From Myxacorys almedinensis A (GTDB lineage: Bacteria; Cyanobacteriota; Cyanobacteriia; Leptolyngbyales; Leptolyngbyaceae): a stretch of 64,000 nucleotides of DNA. The DNA lies in assembly GCF_010091945.1 (NCBI RefSeq), contig NZ_WVIE01000008.1, positions 124,001 to 188,000 on the forward strand, given 5' to 3'. This document shows positions 46,729-61,047 of this stretch, one piece after another; positions within the stretch are counted from its first letter, which is position 1, and each line of letters starts with the position of its first letter. The notes under the pieces were generated by a model. That model ran no database searches. It was not told where the DNA came from and was given only the letters and a program-made list of their open reading frames with translations. The position numbers were made by a program, and so were the translations under genes.

Positions 46729-49379
46729 GAAATGGTGCCTTGCACTGTGAAGGGTTCTCCAGGGAAAACGCGCAACCGACTGAAGGAAGTTTCAAAGTAA
46801 TCTATATTAAACAGATTTCTGAAATTGAGTCCGACGCGAAACCGATTGCGGTTGTAGAAAATGGCGGCATCCGTTCGCAGATAGCTGGGAAGTTGAAAGC
46901 TATTAATCAAATCACCCTGGCGCTCTCCCACAAAAAATAAGCCTGCGCCAACGCCAAAGCCTTGCCAGGGACCCTGCTGAATTTCATAGCTTGTCCACAG
47001 GTTAAAGGAATTTTCAGGAACGTTGTTCAATAGATTGCCTACGGTCAGCGTGTTGTCTCTGGTGATTTCAGCATTGGTGTAGGCATAGCCTGCAATAATG
47101 TTCCATCCGGGTAGGATCTCACCTTGAACGCTAAGTTCAACACCGCGACTGCGCTGCTCTCCCGTCTGAATTGAAAAACCAGGGGGTACGCCGGGTCGAT
47201 TGTCCGCCGTCAACACATTGGAGCGGGTTAAATCATACAAAGCAAGAGTCGCTGAAAGCCGATCATTCAAATCAGCTTTCACTCCCACTTCGTACTGAGT
47301 ACCGCGCTCTGGTTGAAAAACGCTACCATCAAAGGCGGTGCCAGTAGCCGGAGTAAATGAGCCACTGTAGCTGGCATAGAAGGAAATAGGTTCAATAGGC
47401 TGATAGACAATGCCGACACGCGGACTGAAGGCATCTCCTGATTGACTAGTTCTGGTATCTGTTACAAAACTTCGACTAGTTTGCTCAAATAGATCAAACC
47501 GTCCACCCAGTAATAACTTCAGATTCTCTGCCAGCGTCACCTGATTTTGAACATAAATCCCCAGCGTGTCTATTAAATTATTTTGAACAAAACTGGGAGT
47601 AAGGGATCCAGCAGGTCTCCCATACACAGGGCTGAACAGATCTAGAGGTGCAGCAGATCCACTCAAAACATTGAACCTGGCATCTAATCTACCCAGATCA
47701 ACTCCAAAGACCAACTGATGGTCAATTGAACCCGTTGAAAATCTGCCAGTCAAATTGATGTTTAGGTCATAGACATCTGTATTATTATCACTAGTGAAAT
47801 TATTACGATTCAAGGTTCGATTATCAGAAGCAAGACTAGCGCCAAGATAAAATCTGTCTGTAGTTGCAATACTTAAGGTTCTCCACTGAAATGCATTTTG
47901 TAACGACCAGTTGTCGCTGAACTGATGCTCCAGCCGATAGCCCACTCTCCCAAGCGTGCTATTGACAGCACTATCAGGCTCTGAAGTCAGACGGTTACGA
48001 GGTATGCGACCATTAGGATTAGGTAACACCGTACCGACCGCTGGTAGACCAAAGTCTAAGATATTACTTCTGTCTGTATACTCACCTTCCACAGTCAAGC
48101 GGGTTTGCTCCCCAATTGCCAAACTCACGACAGGTGCAATAGAGAATTGACGACTTTCAAAAAAATCGATGAAACTCCTTCTATCCCGGTAGTCTGCATT
48201 CAATCGATACAAAACTGTTCTAGAGTCGTTTAAAGGTCCAGATAGATCAATAGCCCCCCGATAGAAGTCGTAGTTGCCAATGGTGGCATCAAGAGCATAG
48301 AAGGGATCGCGCAGCGGTTGCTTTGTCACCAAGTTGATGGTTCCACCTGGATTAGCTCTACCGTAAAGAACGGAAGCCGGACCTAAGAGAACTTCGATTC
48401 TCTCGATGTCAGGAGCGATCTCTGTAAACACATCTCCAGTCTCTCTAATCCCATTCCTGAGAAAATTATTGCCCTGGCGAGCATTGGTAACAAAACCTCG
48501 AATAATAAAATCGTTAGCATTAATTCTTGAAGGACCCCCTGGAGCTACCCCACTTACGTTTCTGAGGGCTTCATTCAGGTTGGTGACGTTTTGATCCCGT
48601 AATACCTCCTGGGGGATGACCTGAATTGACTGGGGAATGTCGCGTAGGGGGGTGTCGGTGCGGGTTCCTACACTGGTGTTCGGGACACGGTAGCCATCCC
48701 GTTCCCCCGTCACCACAATTTCCTCATCCGGTTCATCGGCTTCCGGGTTAAGGCTGTATGCCAGTCCTCCAGCCTTCAGCGTCACCTCCGTCTGCGGCAG
48801 CGCATTATTTCCCGCCACACTGACGCGAATATTGCCCGCCTGCTGCTCCACCCGCACATTCGCCACATCTGCCGTCGGGTTATCCGTCACAAACGGTTGT
48901 CCCTGGGGCAACGCCAGCACCGCATTGGGAATCTCCGCAATCAGGCTATTTCCTTCCGTGCGAAACTTCGTAGCATCAATCGTCAGCGGTTTGCCCTCCG
49001 CCGTCTCCAGCACGATATCGAGTCCGGTTTCGGTGCGATCGAGTTTCACCCCTGTCACCTGCACCTGTGCCGCTTCCATCTGGGCAACCCAGTCTTTGAC
49101 GGTCGTGGCAGGACGATGTTGTTGTTTGAGGTCACGAACGCGAGAGATAGTTGGCTGTGCCCTAGACGTTGATCCCCCTAAATCCCCCTTCAAAAGGGGG
49201 ACTTTGAGCGCGGGTTCGGTTCCCCCTTTTTCTCTAGCGTCAGCGGCGCGTAGCGCGGGGGCTAGGGGGGATCTCCGTGAAGCTAGGGGCGATCGCTCCT
49301 CTGCCCCTGACGGCAACGCCAACCCCACGATCGCCGATACACTCAACAGCAACGCCACCGAATAAGAATTCCGCTTCAT
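46716..49379 (-). CDS. AMIN-domain TonB-dependent siderophore receptor, cassette 1
   Basis: About 887 residues from ATG 49379. Signal peptide (6-30), then a 35-residue insert encoded by a repeat, an AMIN domain at about 112-205 (VQVTGVKLDRTETGLDIVLE), linker EPDEEIVVTGER, plug from 245 (RDIPQSIQVIPQEVLRDQNV) and a 22-strand-type barrel ending in ISWQF with terminal Phe. Outer-membrane ferric-siderophore receptor. Start is the second ATG, which gives a proper signal peptide. Followed by fecB with overlap, so operonic. Confidence 0.92.
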   Translation of the reverse strand: MKRNSYSVALLLSVSAIVGLALPSGAEERSPLASRRSPLAPALRAADAREKGGTEPALKVPLLKGDLGGSTSRAQPTISRVRDLKQQHRPATTVKDWVAQMEAAQVQVTGVKLDRTETGLDIVLETAEGKPLTIDATKFRTEGNSLIAEIPNAVLALPQGQPFVTDNPTADVANVRVEQQAGNIRVSVAGNNALPQTEVTLKAGGLAYSLNPEADEPDEEIVVTGERDGYRVPNTSVGTRTDTPLRDIPQSIQVIPQEVLRDQNVTNLNEALRNVSGVAPGGPSRINANDFIIRGFVTNARQGNNFLRNGIRETGDVFTEIAPDIERIEVLLGPASVLYGRANPGGTINLVTKQPLRDPFYALDATIGNYDFYRGAIDLSGPLNDSRTVLYRLNADYRDRRSFIDFFESRQFSIAPVVSLAIGEQTRLTVEGEYTDRSNILDFGLPAVGTVLPNPNGRIPRNRLTSEPDSAVNSTLGRVGYRLEHQFSDNWSLQNAFQWRTLSIATTDRFYLGASLASDNRTLNRNNFTSDNNTDVYDLNINLTGRFSTGSIDHQLVFGVDLGRLDARFNVLSGSAAPLDLFSPVYGRPAGSLTPSFVQNNLIDTLGIYVQNQVTLAENLKLLLGGRFDLFEQTSRSFVTDTRTSQSGDAFSPRVGIVYQPIEPISFYASYSGSFTPATGTAFDGSVFQPERGTQYEVGVKADLNDRLSATLALYDLTRSNVLTADNRPGVPPGFSIQTGEQRSRGVELSVQGEILPGWNIIAGYAYTNAEITRDNTLTVGNLLNNVPENSFNLWTSYEIQQGPWQGFGVGAGLFFVGERQGDLINSFQLPSYLRTDAAIFYNRNRFRVGLNFRNLFNIDYFETSFSRLRVFPGEPFTVQGTISWQF
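49171..49274 (-). repeat. Palindromic C/G-run repeat inserted in frame in the TonB receptor
   Basis: 104 bp from GATCCCCCTAAATCCCC to GGCTAGGGGGGATCT, the same family as the copies at 57855 and 58345. It is translated as residues 41-75, containing LKVPLLKGDLGGS. The paralogous receptor at 58436 lacks it. Confidence 0.85.
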
Positions 49380-56795: not shown

Positions 56796-57788
56796 TTAGG
56801 GAGTGTTGACTAAGTACTTCTCGATTTCATCTAGCACTGCATGAGCTGCAAGAATGTTGTATCCATGCCAGAGGTTGAGATTTACCAGATACACTTGGTT
56901 TTGCTGTACTGCCTTGACTTGAGACCATAGGGGTCTCTGTTGAAGTTGCTCTAGAAGAGAGCGGTCATTCTCAGTGTATGTAGCAATAAAAAGAATATCG
57001 CCATCAATTTCTGGCAAAGTTTCTTCAGAAAGAATGCCAGATGTTACAGATCTCGGTGCTAATAACCCTAGCTCGTCCAAAATTCGATCGGCAAAATCTT
57101 TGCCGTCGTAGTAGAGTTGACCCCTCATAACACTGGCAAATGATATCTGAATAGGTTGTTGGCGATTCTCCTTTGAAGAAGCTGCGCCTTTTTGATCTGC
57201 CGCAGATTTTATGCTCAATGCTTGCTTTAAGTGTTGAATCCGACGGTCATAGTCGTCTAGCAGTTGAGTGGCTAATTTTGTTTTTTCAAGCACCCCTGCA
57301 ACATCTTGAAGGTGCTGTTTCCAATCACCTATGGTTTCCATCCAAGGCAGAACGACTGTAGGAGCGATTTGTGACAACTGGTTATAGATTCCTTGAAATG
57401 CTCCATCAGAAACAACAATAATTAGGTCAGGCTTGAGTAATACAATTCGTTCCAAATTGGGCTGTGAGCCGTACATCATCTCAACCCCATCTGTTTTGTC
57501 TGCAAGGTAGTCAAATGCTTCATAGCCTCCATCTATGAACGCCGCGACAGGTTTGCTATTCAAGGCAAGTATATCAGCAAGGCTATTGTAAGACATAGCG
57601 ACAATTCGTTGTGGATGCAGAGGGATGCAAGTTTCTCCCCTAACGTGCTGTACGACTCGGCAGGGAGTTGGCATTTTGCTACGCTCGACAACAGTGCTAC
57701 TACAGGCTGAGACCATAATGGTAGCCAGAACCAATAATGAAAACCATTGCCACAAACCCCGCCATAGTGGGCATACTTTCCTGAGCAA
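56796..57788 (-). CDS. Iron-siderophore ABC transporter binding protein (FecB type), cassette 2
   Basis: 330 residues. Lipobox SAC with Cys29, so a lipoprotein. RIVAMSYNSLADILALNSKP and LLKPDLIIVVSDGAFQG show the class III fold. More diverged from the cassette 1 protein than the DUF1636 copies are from each other, which suggests different siderophores with conversion at the 3' end. Separated from its receptor by the DUF559 element rather than overlapping it. Confidence 0.88.
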   Translation of the reverse strand: MLRKVCPLWRGLWQWFSLLVLATIMVSACSSTVVERSKMPTPCRVVQHVRGETCIPLHPQRIVAMSYNSLADILALNSKPVAAFIDGGYEAFDYLADKTDGVEMMYGSQPNLERIVLLKPDLIIVVSDGAFQGIYNQLSQIAPTVVLPWMETIGDWKQHLQDVAGVLEKTKLATQLLDDYDRRIQHLKQALSIKSAADQKGAASSKENRQQPIQISFASVMRGQLYYDGKDFADRILDELGLLAPRSVTSGILSEETLPEIDGDILFIATYTENDRSLLEQLQQRPLWSQVKAVQQNQVYLVNLNLWHGYNILAAHAVLDEIEKYLVNTP

Positions 57789-57854
57789 TGCTTTAATCCC
57801 CCCTTTTTAAGCTACCGTGTATACACATCTCAGTTCCTTGCACAAAACCCTGAA

Positions 57855-57954
57855 AGATCCCCCTAAATCCCCGCGCTATCGCGCCGCTTCGCTAGAAAAA
57901 AGGGGGACTTTGAGTCCGGTTCCCCCCTTTCTCAAGGGGGGCTAGGGGGGATCT
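57855..57954 (+). repeat. Palindromic repeat, left copy beside DUF559
   Basis: 100 bp, AGATCCCCCTAAATCCCC to GGGGCTAGGGGGGATCT, with AAAGGGGGACTTTGAGTCCGG inside, able to fold into long hairpins. Ends 1 bp before the DUF559 start codon. Inverted relative to the copy at 58345. Confidence 0.9.
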
Positions 57955-57955
57955 C

Positions 57956-58369
57956 ATGCCTGACCACAACAGTTTTATCAACACAAACTTTCACCTACCC
58001 TACAATTCAAAACTGGTTTCTAGAGCAAAAGAACTCCGGCAAAACCCAACGCCTGCTGAACAGAAACTATGGCGAGACTATCTCAGAACATTTCCTTTTC
58101 GAGTCTTGCGGCAAAGACCGATCGCTCATTTTATTGTGGATTTTTACTGTGCTGCATTGAAATTGGTAATTGAGGTGGATGGAGACAGTCATTTTACTGA
58201 AGATGGAAAACAATACGATTGGGAACGAACACAAGTTTTGACAGGATATGGATTAACGGTGATTCGGTTTACGAATGAGGAAGTGATGACGCAGTTTGAG
58301 GGTGTGTGTGGGAGTCTGGAGGGGTTGATCCCCCCTAACCCCCTTGAGATCCCCCCTAGCCCCCCTTGA
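57956..58369 (+). CDS. DUF559 (Vsr-like) nuclease-family protein
   Basis: 137 residues. NPTPAEQKLWRDYLRTFPFR, VLRQRPIAHFIVDFYCAALK with LVIEVDGDSHF, and the final YGLTVIRFTNEEVMTQFEGV are the DUF559 core; Asp in VDFYC and Glu/Asp in EVDGD resemble Vsr/PD-(D/E)XK ligands. The last residues (IPPNPLEIPPSPP) are translated from the right-hand repeat. Placed between fecB2 and TonB2 on the opposite strand, it looks inserted. The ATG is 1 bp from the left repeat. Confidence 0.9.
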   Translation: MPDHNSFINTNFHLPYNSKLVSRAKELRQNPTPAEQKLWRDYLRTFPFRVLRQRPIAHFIVDFYCAALKLVIEVDGDSHFTEDGKQYDWERTQVLTGYGLTVIRFTNEEVMTQFEGVCGSLEGLIPPNPLEIPPSPP

Positions 58370-58428
58370 AAAGGGGGGGACTGGAGCGGCTTCAAAGTCC
58401 CCCTTTTTAAGGGGGATTTAGGGGGATC
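58345..58428 (-). repeat. Palindromic repeat, right copy beside DUF559
   Basis: About 84 bp from GAGATCCCCCCTAGCCCC to TTTAGGGGGATC. Its reverse complement aligns with the left copy from end to end. The preceding GATCCCCCCTAACCCCC (58327) is a partial extra unit. It contains the last eight codons and stop of DUF559. Confidence 0.88.
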
Positions 58429-58435
58429 GAGGGGA

Positions 58436-61024
58436 TCAAAACTGCCACGAAATCGTGCCCTGCACCGCAAAAGGTTCACCGTAAAAAATACTCCCCCTAC
58501 CATAGGAACTTTCAAAATAGGTGATATTGAACAGATTTCTGAAATTGACGGCGGCGCGGAACCGATCGCGCTGGTAATAAAGCGCGGCATCCGTCCGCAG
58601 GTAGCTGGGTAGCTCGTAGCTGGTGTCGAAAAAGCCCGGTCGCTCTCCCACATAGAACAAGCCCACGCCCACACCAAACCCTTGCAGAACACCGCTCTGA
58701 AACTCATACTTCGTCCACAGGTTGAAGGAATTTTGAGGTACATTGCCCAAGCCACTACCCACAGGAATTGAGTTGTCATTGGTGGCGGTGACTTCAGCAT
58801 CGATGTAGGCATAGCCCACAATGATGCTCCATCCCGGCAAGATTTCGCCTCCAAGGGTCAGGTCGAACCCCCGACTGCGTTGCTCACCCACTTGAATCGA
58901 AAAACGATCAGGGGGAACACCGGGTCTGGTGTCAGGCGTCAAAACATTGGAGCGGGTGAGGTTGTAAAAAGCCAGCGTTGCCGATAGTTGGTCGTTCAAA
59001 TCTGCCTTGACTCCCACTTCATACTGGGTGCCGCGCTCTGGTTGGAATTGGTTCCCCTCAAAATCGGTGCCACCGTTTGGGAGGAAGGAGCGAGCGTAGC
59101 TGGCATAAAGCGAAATGGGTGGAATGGGTTGATAGACGATACCAACACGCGGGGAAAAGGCATTGCTTGACTCGGTTGATTCTGTATCGGCGAGATTATC
59201 TTTGGTTGTTTGCCTGAAGAGATCAAACTGCCCGCCCAGGAGCAGCTTGAGATTGGGAGCCAGCGTCACCAGGTCTTGAACATACACTCCTAATGAGTCT
59301 GTTAAAAGGTCAACATCAAAATCGAGGGTAAGAGGTCCGGTTGGCTGCCCATACACGGGGTTGAACACGTCAATGGGGGAGGCAGTTCCTATGAAACCTC
59401 TCCCTGCAGTGGCAGTGTAACCACCACCGTCGAGTCGATTCAGATCGACTCCAAAGAGGAGCTGATGGTCAATTGAACCGGTTGAAAATTCGCCAGTCAG
59501 GTAGGTTTGTAGCCCATAGGATTGCCTGTCTTCACTGCCGTCAAACCGTGTCCGATTAATGGTTCGCTGATCTGGATTCAGTCCAATACCCAAATTTTGG
59601 ACTACCAATGAACTTTCAGTTTCAAAGAACGATGCCCGAAAGACATTTTGGATCGACCAGTTGTCGCTGAACTGATGCTCTAACCGATAGCCAACTCTGC
59701 TCAGGGTGCTATTTACATAACTTTCTGCCGTATTCCGATTGCGCGGGATGCGACCATTGGGGTTGGGTAGCACTGTGCCTTCGATCGGCAGACCAAAGAA
59801 AAATGAATCGGCTGTGTCTATGTATTCGCCTTCCAAGGTTAAGCGGGTGTGATCGCCCAGCGCCAAACTGATGACCGGTGAAATAAAGAACTGACTCTCG
59901 TCAAACCGATCAACAAAAGCATTTCTGTCCTGATAGGCAACATTGAGACGATACAACACCGTCCTTGAGTCGTTCAACGGTCCAGACAAATCGATCGCGC
60001 CTCGATAGAAGTCAAAGCTGCCAATCGTGGCATTAACCGCATAAAAGGGATCGCGCAGGGGCTGTTTGGTCACGACGTTAACAGCGCCACCGGGAGAGTT
60101 GCGACCGAAGAGCACGGAAGCTGGACCACTGAGCACCTCGACTCGCTCGATGTTGGCGAAATCAACACCGGTGTCAGGTCGATCCTGATCTCTTACCCCA
60201 TTCCTGAGAACCCGGCTCTCAAAGCCCCGCAAAGTAACTTGTTGATCCCTATCTGTGATGGAAGAGCCTCCTTGACTCGCCCCAGCGACATTGCGAGTGG
60301 CATCTTGTAAGCGGGTGACGTTTTGATCGCGCAGTACCTCCTGTGGTACGACCTGAATCGTTTGGGGAATGTCGCGCAAAGGTGTGTCGGTGCGGGTGCC
60401 CACGCTGGTATTCGGGACGCGGTAGCCACCACGTTCTCCCGTCACCACAATTTCCTCATCCGGCTCATCGGCTTCTGGGTTAAGGCTGTATGCCAGTCCT
60501 CCAGCCTTCAGTGTCACCTCCGTCTGCGGCAGCGCATTATTTCCCGCCACACTGACGCGAATATTTCCCGCCTGCTGCTCCACCCGCACATTCGCCACAT
60601 CTGCCGTCGGGTTCTCCGCTACAAACGGCTGTCCTTGGGGTAACGCCAGCGTCGCATTGGGAATCTCGGCAATCAGGCTATTCCCTTCGGTGCGAAACTT
60701 GGTGGCATCAATGGTGAGCGGCTTCCCCTCCGCCGTTTCCAGCACAATATCGAGTCCCGCTTCGGTGCGTTCCAGTTTCACTCCCGTCACTTGCACCTGT
60801 GCCGCTTCCACCTGCGCCATCCACTCTTTCACCGTCGTTGCAGGTCGATTGCTCCGCAAGCTTCCAGAGGAATCGCGCTCTTGCGATCGAGATACCTGTG
60901 GGGTAACTTCTGCCGCGATCGCTCCAGTTGCTGCGATTAGCGCAAAGCGCAACTCCGTAGGAACCAACATTCCCACCAGCGAAACCGTCACCGCCAATCC
61001 GCCCACTTGCCAAAGTTTCATCAT
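58436..61024 (-). CDS. AMIN-domain TonB-dependent siderophore receptor, cassette 2
   Basis: About 862 residues from MKLWQVGG; an upstream ATG at 61045 adds seven. Signal peptide (about 5-45), AMIN domain (VQVTGVKLERTEAGLDIVLE), EEIVVTGERGGYRVPNTSVG, plug (RDIPQTIQVVPQEVLRDQNV) and barrel ending ISWQF. Nearly identical to cassette 1 across AMIN and early plug, then divergent in the ligand-facing plug and loops, as expected for receptors with different ligands. Lacks the repeat insert of the other receptor. Confidence 0.92.
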   Translation of the reverse strand: MMKLWQVGGLAVTVSLVGMLVPTELRFALIAATGAIAAEVTPQVSRSQERDSSGSLRSNRPATTVKEWMAQVEAAQVQVTGVKLERTEAGLDIVLETAEGKPLTIDATKFRTEGNSLIAEIPNATLALPQGQPFVAENPTADVANVRVEQQAGNIRVSVAGNNALPQTEVTLKAGGLAYSLNPEADEPDEEIVVTGERGGYRVPNTSVGTRTDTPLRDIPQTIQVVPQEVLRDQNVTRLQDATRNVAGASQGGSSITDRDQQVTLRGFESRVLRNGVRDQDRPDTGVDFANIERVEVLSGPASVLFGRNSPGGAVNVVTKQPLRDPFYAVNATIGSFDFYRGAIDLSGPLNDSRTVLYRLNVAYQDRNAFVDRFDESQFFISPVISLALGDHTRLTLEGEYIDTADSFFFGLPIEGTVLPNPNGRIPRNRNTAESYVNSTLSRVGYRLEHQFSDNWSIQNVFRASFFETESSLVVQNLGIGLNPDQRTINRTRFDGSEDRQSYGLQTYLTGEFSTGSIDHQLLFGVDLNRLDGGGYTATAGRGFIGTASPIDVFNPVYGQPTGPLTLDFDVDLLTDSLGVYVQDLVTLAPNLKLLLGGQFDLFRQTTKDNLADTESTESSNAFSPRVGIVYQPIPPISLYASYARSFLPNGGTDFEGNQFQPERGTQYEVGVKADLNDQLSATLAFYNLTRSNVLTPDTRPGVPPDRFSIQVGEQRSRGFDLTLGGEILPGWSIIVGYAYIDAEVTATNDNSIPVGSGLGNVPQNSFNLWTKYEFQSGVLQGFGVGVGLFYVGERPGFFDTSYELPSYLRTDAALYYQRDRFRAAVNFRNLFNITYFESSYGRGSIFYGEPFAVQGTISWQF

Positions 61025-61047
61025 CGTCCTCACACCGTTGCACACAC

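Follow-up and report, generated by a model that had tools for sequence, protein, structure and literature searches.

A DUF559 nuclease gene framed by inverted palindromic repeats in a cyanobacterium and the association of DUF559 genes with such repeats across bacteria

In Myxacorys almedinensis A a short nuclease-like gene lies between a fecB-like gene and a TonB-dependent receptor gene, with a palindromic repeat at either end of it. The question that this locus raises is whether the nuclease and the repeats belong together, or whether the gene merely sits where repeats spread by other means have landed. The locus is part of a 64,000-nucleotide stretch of contig NZ_WVIE01000008.1 (positions 124,001 to 188,000), which is the window referred to below. 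A sequence-only reading had described inverted copies of a repeat around the gene, the right-hand copy taking in the 3' end of the gene, the whole placed between two minus-strand genes, and a lone copy of the repeat at 49171. Each of these points is borne out by the features of the window, which are as follows.

49171–49273, plus strand: solitary complete unit of about 103 bp, without an adjoining DUF559
56796–57788, minus strand: fecB-like periplasmic binding protein gene, the left neighbour
57798–57811, strand not given: half-hairpin fragment CCCCCCTTTTTAAG near the fecB start, followed by a companion GTGTATACAC
57856–57953, plus strand: left palindromic unit, class A, with tag GATCCCCCTAAATCCCC, two hairpins and inverted tag GGGGGGCTAGGGGGGATC
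57956–58369, plus strand: DUF559 (PF04480) ORF of 137 aa with a PD-(D/E)XK / EDxHD-type nuclease fold, its stop codon within the right unit
58327–58347, plus strand: truncated third unit end, GATCCCCCCTAACCCCCTTGA, within the 3' end of the ORF
58348–58428, minus strand: right palindromic unit, in opposite orientation to the left one, ending 7 bp before the stop codon of the TonB gene
58436–61045, minus strand: TonB-dependent receptor gene, the right neighbour

Both window units consist of a GATCCCCCTAAAT end, two hairpins and a GATCCCCCCTAGC end. The inverted arm pairs of the left and right units are 94% identical over 36 nt, 91% over 22 nt and 100% over 17 nt, and the left unit stops 2 bp upstream of the ATG at 57956. 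Within the window GATCCCCCTAAATCCCC occurs four times at up to three mismatches (0.10 expected) and GATCCCCCCTAGCCCCCCTTG twice exactly (0.00 expected). The single-strand folds of the window units beat those of shuffled sequences (z = -2.0, -3.3 and -2.9). In the left unit a second small palindrome (GCGCTATCGCGCCGCTTCGC) takes the place of one hairpin loop, and small palindromes of the TAGCG..GCGC type lie in unit hairpin loops at 57872–57895 and 49230–49262 and at loci L026, L030 and L123, giving repeats nested in repeats. A companion sequence like GTGTACACCGTAGC or GCTACCGTGTATACAC adjoins units in different genomes (window 57811–57826, L013, L032, L123 and the arrays of genome G104, L254).

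The ORF is identified as DUF559 by its profile match to PF04480 (E = 8e-28), the domain spanning residues 19–119 of the 137 aa. The Vsr/PD-(D/E)XK-like core ascribed to the protein beforehand was recovered by fold and profile searches, which returned 3hrl (Neisseria NGO0050, itself a DUF559 protein), I-Bth0305I (3r3p), AbaSI and Vsr. Among characterised proteins, I-Bth0305I, a homing endonuclease, is the closest relative both in sequence (E = 2e-6) and in fold (TM 0.76 on the target). Invariant residues include E35, D62, E73, D75 and H79 in the numbering of the window protein, and outside its catalytic domain the 137-aa protein carries no extended DNA-binding region. There is no transposase within the cassette; in a profile search its enzyme matched DUF559 only and not the Y1 (HUH) transposase domain PF01797. 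No Padloc defence model matches the window DUF559.

The 4.96-Mb genome holds a single DUF559 gene. Searched genome-wide at up to two mismatches, the 17-mer unit end occurs as five exact copies and one with a single mismatch, and two of the five exact copies bracket the sole DUF559 gene. The cassette is missing from four related TonB–fecB junctions of this genome (window ~46.7 kb, C36, C11 and C84:72k), and the junction on contig C32 holds a deletion relic of one, comprising half a unit and the first ~70 nt of DUF559 (G000:C32:26983-27221, L206). The genome also contains two matches to Y1_Tnp (PF01797), both away from the cassette. A Y1/RAYT enzyme as mobiliser was considered and rejected, the class-A end motif being absent from the fetched flanks of both matches.

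The sequence-only reading had proposed comparing DUF559 genes elsewhere with other genes. For this comparison 80 DUF559 loci were picked by protein similarity alone, blind to repeats; they are the best 80 matches to one query family and not a random sample. A repeat shared between the 600 bp upstream and the 600 bp downstream was present at 44/76 DUF559 loci and at 7/456 random places on the same contigs. When ORFs of the same contigs served as controls, flank-to-flank repeats were found at 37/69 DUF559 loci as against 10/351 short and 3/250 long ORFs (13/601 in all; Fisher p = 6e-25 against the short ORFs), a strong enrichment beside DUF559. Hairpin density, measured independently of the flank repeats, gives the same picture: hairpins whose 5' arm is made of C-rich pyrimidine sequence number 0.58 per 200 bp in the immediate surroundings of DUF559 and 0.005 at a distance of 2.4–10 kb, a difference of about 100-fold. 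This excess fades within a few hundred bp of DUF559, and other hairpins vary far less. Flank repeats, the hairpin sign or both are present at 66 of the 80 loci, in 17 named phyla. The association of DUF559 with repeats is general across bacteria, extending over at least 17 phyla.

Among cyanobacteria the class-A end is present in 38/59 with DUF559 and in 9/32 without (p = 0.001), a comparison confounded by lineage. Genes other than DUF559 were considered as the bracketed partner and rejected; six stretches with nearby pairs of units held unrelated genes, mostly housekeeping. In the f30 family (L159–L188), whose small genomes (~2 Mb) come from a distantly related branch of the phylum, a single genome can hold as many as seven DUF559 genes, and C-rich hairpins are present in the few flanks viewed.

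Three repeat classes were distinguished in cyanobacteria: one ended by GATCCCCC, one with CCCCTAAATCCCCC and without GATC, and one of the form CCCTCAxCCCC. All 12 genes of the clade that contains the window's DUF559 (support 100/99) have class A repeats. On the DUF559 tree the class labels change 10 times, compared with 22.1 times in shuffles, and none of 200 shuffles was as low; because the labels are regex-based (L008 and L009 are scored A but resemble class C) and neighbours are related, this figure overstates independence. Two genomes, G016 and G032, carry DUF559s from two clades each, every one with its own repeat class, so that the class is not fixed for the genome as a whole. DUF559s of the class B clade (L010, L011 and L041) split a single unit, with one half on either side of the gene. 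Repeat class, then, goes with the clade of the DUF559 gene and not with the genome.

Cassettes also lie in frame within coding genes, and in eight of the nine such hosts checked against Pfam the interrupted gene codes for a restriction-modification or defence methylase, of the MmeI/type IIG, Eco57I-like, DrmMI, type ISP and HsdM kinds. At one of these loci, L014, a 98-bp unit with ends TTGCCCTCA...TGAGGGCAA lies on either side of DUF559. The host flanks of L014 were joined minus the cassette and searched in cyanobacteria. The join is spanned by 17 orthologues (query ~1–227 of 229) and the span equals the query length, i.e. there is no insert. One orthologue (L142, 81% identical) was aligned residue by residue to the joined L014, and the junction was viewed in three more. 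Whole cassettes are present where homologues show no interruption. A comparison of Sinorhizobium plasmids yielded no usable empty site. The two sister DUF559s of G032 have common upstream sequence that starts at the half-unit.

More widely, methyltransferase genes of restriction-modification, BREX and DISARM systems are split by DUF559 cassettes or hold them in frame (L012, L014, L018, L019, L023, L024, L118 and L057), as is also seen on plasmids (L135 and L136), and the cassette positions differ among the host genes. Upstream of the DUF559 at L123 (~2000–2450) there are three tandem ~110-bp copies, each made up of half a unit and the first ~60 nt of DUF559, which suggests repeated copying or slippage at the unit/DUF559 boundary.

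Units are also found away from DUF559. Five genomes contain exact 17-mers (range 9–55) but no intact stand-alone DUF559, namely G080 (55), G242 (25), G063 (15), G131 and G139. In G143, two aligned unit subfamilies occupy a fixed position inside a ~160-bp MITE (loci L237–L265 and L267–L276) whose inverted ends, GAGG(A/T)TGTTTGAAAA, are unrelated to the unit; at one site, five sister species are homologous up to the MITE edge and no further. This MITE was probably moved by an unrelated transposase. G104, on the other hand, has dozens of free 77-bp units in which homology ends exactly at the GATC ends, without MITE ends. This contrast between MITE-borne and free units indicates that the units are modules with more than one travel route. 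A target duplication of at least 3 nt outside GATC was seen in none of 18 units, the terminal GATC itself being indistinguishable from a duplication. G104 additionally has runs of roughly twelve units arrayed in tandem, spaced almost evenly at ~105 bp (G104:C1:451957-453128 and 2125288-2126555). Dispersed C-rich palindromic repeats of this type are widespread, and we know of no enzyme for them.

In E. coli K-12 the DUF559 gene is ycjD, which is separated from fabI by C-rich palindromic repeats and whose product was placed earlier in the PD-(D/E)XK superfamily (PMC1189080). Repeats of the ycjD type occupy a median of 16–17 places per E. coli genome. Among 59 E. coli chromosomes, taken evenly down the ranking, the 37 with ycjD carry repeats at a median of 17 other places and the 22 without it at a median of 5.5; the negative strains probably belong to few lineages, so this difference is suggestive only. 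Two candidate empty sites were rejected. At the ycjD site the fetched ycjD-negative strains hold the efflux operon eefABC (PMC12817139), and at a solo-unit site between ypfG and tkt (L231–L236) a ycjD-type repeat or REP sequences occur as alternative alleles at the same spot, so that the other allele is REP and not an empty site.

The pan-bacterial association, the match between clade and class, the uninterrupted homologous sites and the fold related to Vsr and I-Bth0305I are all evidence for a cognate pair. Also in its favour are the two sister DUF559s of G032, the lineage-confounded counts in E. coli and cyanobacteria, and the need for Caulobacter VsrA in a DNA-damage response (PMC12907096). 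We put at about even chances the proposal that DUF559 and its flanking units form such a pair, a probably selfish, two-part element in which the free-standing nuclease gene is embedded in copies of the repeat that it would recognise. A broader proposal, which we make tentatively and rate somewhat below an even chance, makes DUF559 the dedicated enzyme for mobile, C-rich palindromic repeats that form a pan-bacterial superfamily. Copying of the repeat would then fall to a PD-(D/E)XK nuclease together with host repair, in a second, non-homologous system of the REP/RAYT type that E. coli ycjD represents. In the cognate pair, DUF559 would recognise the unit, either as an extruded hairpin or cruciform or through its C-rich end, and would cut at or beside it; break repair or template switching could then copy the unit or the whole unit–DUF559–unit cassette. 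Host repair has to be invoked because a hydrolytic nuclease cannot join strands. Units without DUF559 would be DUF559-less derivatives or relics. Counting against DUF559 as the mobiliser are the repeat-rich genomes without an intact DUF559, the MITE-borne units of G143 and the lack of a target duplication other than a possible GATC.

The main rival to a cognate pair is a gene that homes into repeats spread by others. Here a homing-type DUF559 would parasitise repeats dispersed by other machinery, and the units would be landing sites and a safe harbour rather than products. Such homing would suit the nearest characterised relative, I-Bth0305I, the assignment of DUF559 to the EDxHD homing family in one paper (PMC9403480), the splitting of one unit into halves by class B DUF559s, the carriage of units by a MITE in G143 and the persistence of units in genomes without an intact DUF559. 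It leaves unexplained, however, the full units on both sides of the gene in the window and at L014, and both the 77-bp units of G104, which end exactly at GATC without MITE ends, and the higher repeat copy number of ycjD-positive E. coli speak against it. We consider it unlikely. A cognate pair and homing into the repeats of others both predict association and class matching, and they differ on whether the abundance of units is tied to the nuclease.

Two further explanations appear weaker. A Vsr-like fold, and the requirement for the Caulobacter DUF559 protein VsrA in the DNA-damage response of cells without ScmA methylation, which ties it to cytosine methylation (PMC12907096), would fit a host genome-maintenance nuclease acting in Vsr-like mismatch or structure-specific repair, with the repeats as regulatory elements or as in-cis targets that keep the gene in place. 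We regard this as improbable, given that DUF559 is patchily distributed between close relatives, that its copies are multiple and decayed, that cassettes lie in frame within restriction-modification genes and that the repeat classes are clade-specific. Least probable of all, and disfavoured, is a passive association, in which tolerant intergenic DNA takes up C-rich palindromic repeats and DUF559 happens to sit there. These genomes do contain many such repeats, and housekeeping genes too can lie between pairs of them, but the strong enrichment reaches no further than a few hundred bp from DUF559, the repeat classes match the clades, and repeats and DUF559 occur jointly inside coding genes.

A link between DUF559 and repeats was not found in the open-access papers on DUF559 that were searched, and the data point to an apparently undescribed nuclease–repeat partnership. 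If the cognate pair is real, it suggests a role for a large family of 'unknown function' that is found in many bacterial phyla, and a partnership of the REP/RAYT type would have arisen more than once, with unrelated chemistry. E. coli K-12 offers in ycjD a single, genetically easy candidate partner that makes the origin of the repeats directly testable.

Compared with known systems, the cassette is closest in arrangement to REP/REPIN–RAYT. In both there are dispersed short palindromic units with conserved end tags and many copies per genome, inverted doublets (REPIN-like) are present, and the units flank one associated nuclease gene, their classes varying along with it. The label of a REP/RAYT-like cassette given to the locus beforehand therefore holds for the layout, with its bracketing repeats and its class that tracks the clade, but not for membership: RAYT is a Y1 HUH transposase, whereas the enzyme here is a PD-(D/E)XK DUF559 nuclease. 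The DUF559 units also lack tags of the GTAG/CGTC type, the cassettes are spread over 17 phyla and they occur in frame within genes as well; E. coli carries both REP and ycjD-type repeats, which alternate at one site. MITEs and IS elements similarly have short inverted ends and many gene-less copies, but the DUF559 cassette has no DDE transposase and its units no clear target duplication. Vsr, Caulobacter VsrA and Neisseria NGO0050 (3hrl) belong to the same family or fold, but in the open-access literature searched no repeat link was found for them. I-Bth0305I (PDB 3r3p) has detectable homology in the catalytic domain and the same fold as the window DUF559, which in contrast consists of the catalytic domain alone, with palindromic repeats around it and no intron or intein seen. 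For the EDxHD homing endonucleases, the half-unit layout of class B is compatible with a gene lying in its own putative cleavage site. By analogy with these systems, the element would be REP/RAYT-like in layout and homing-endonuclease-like in chemistry.
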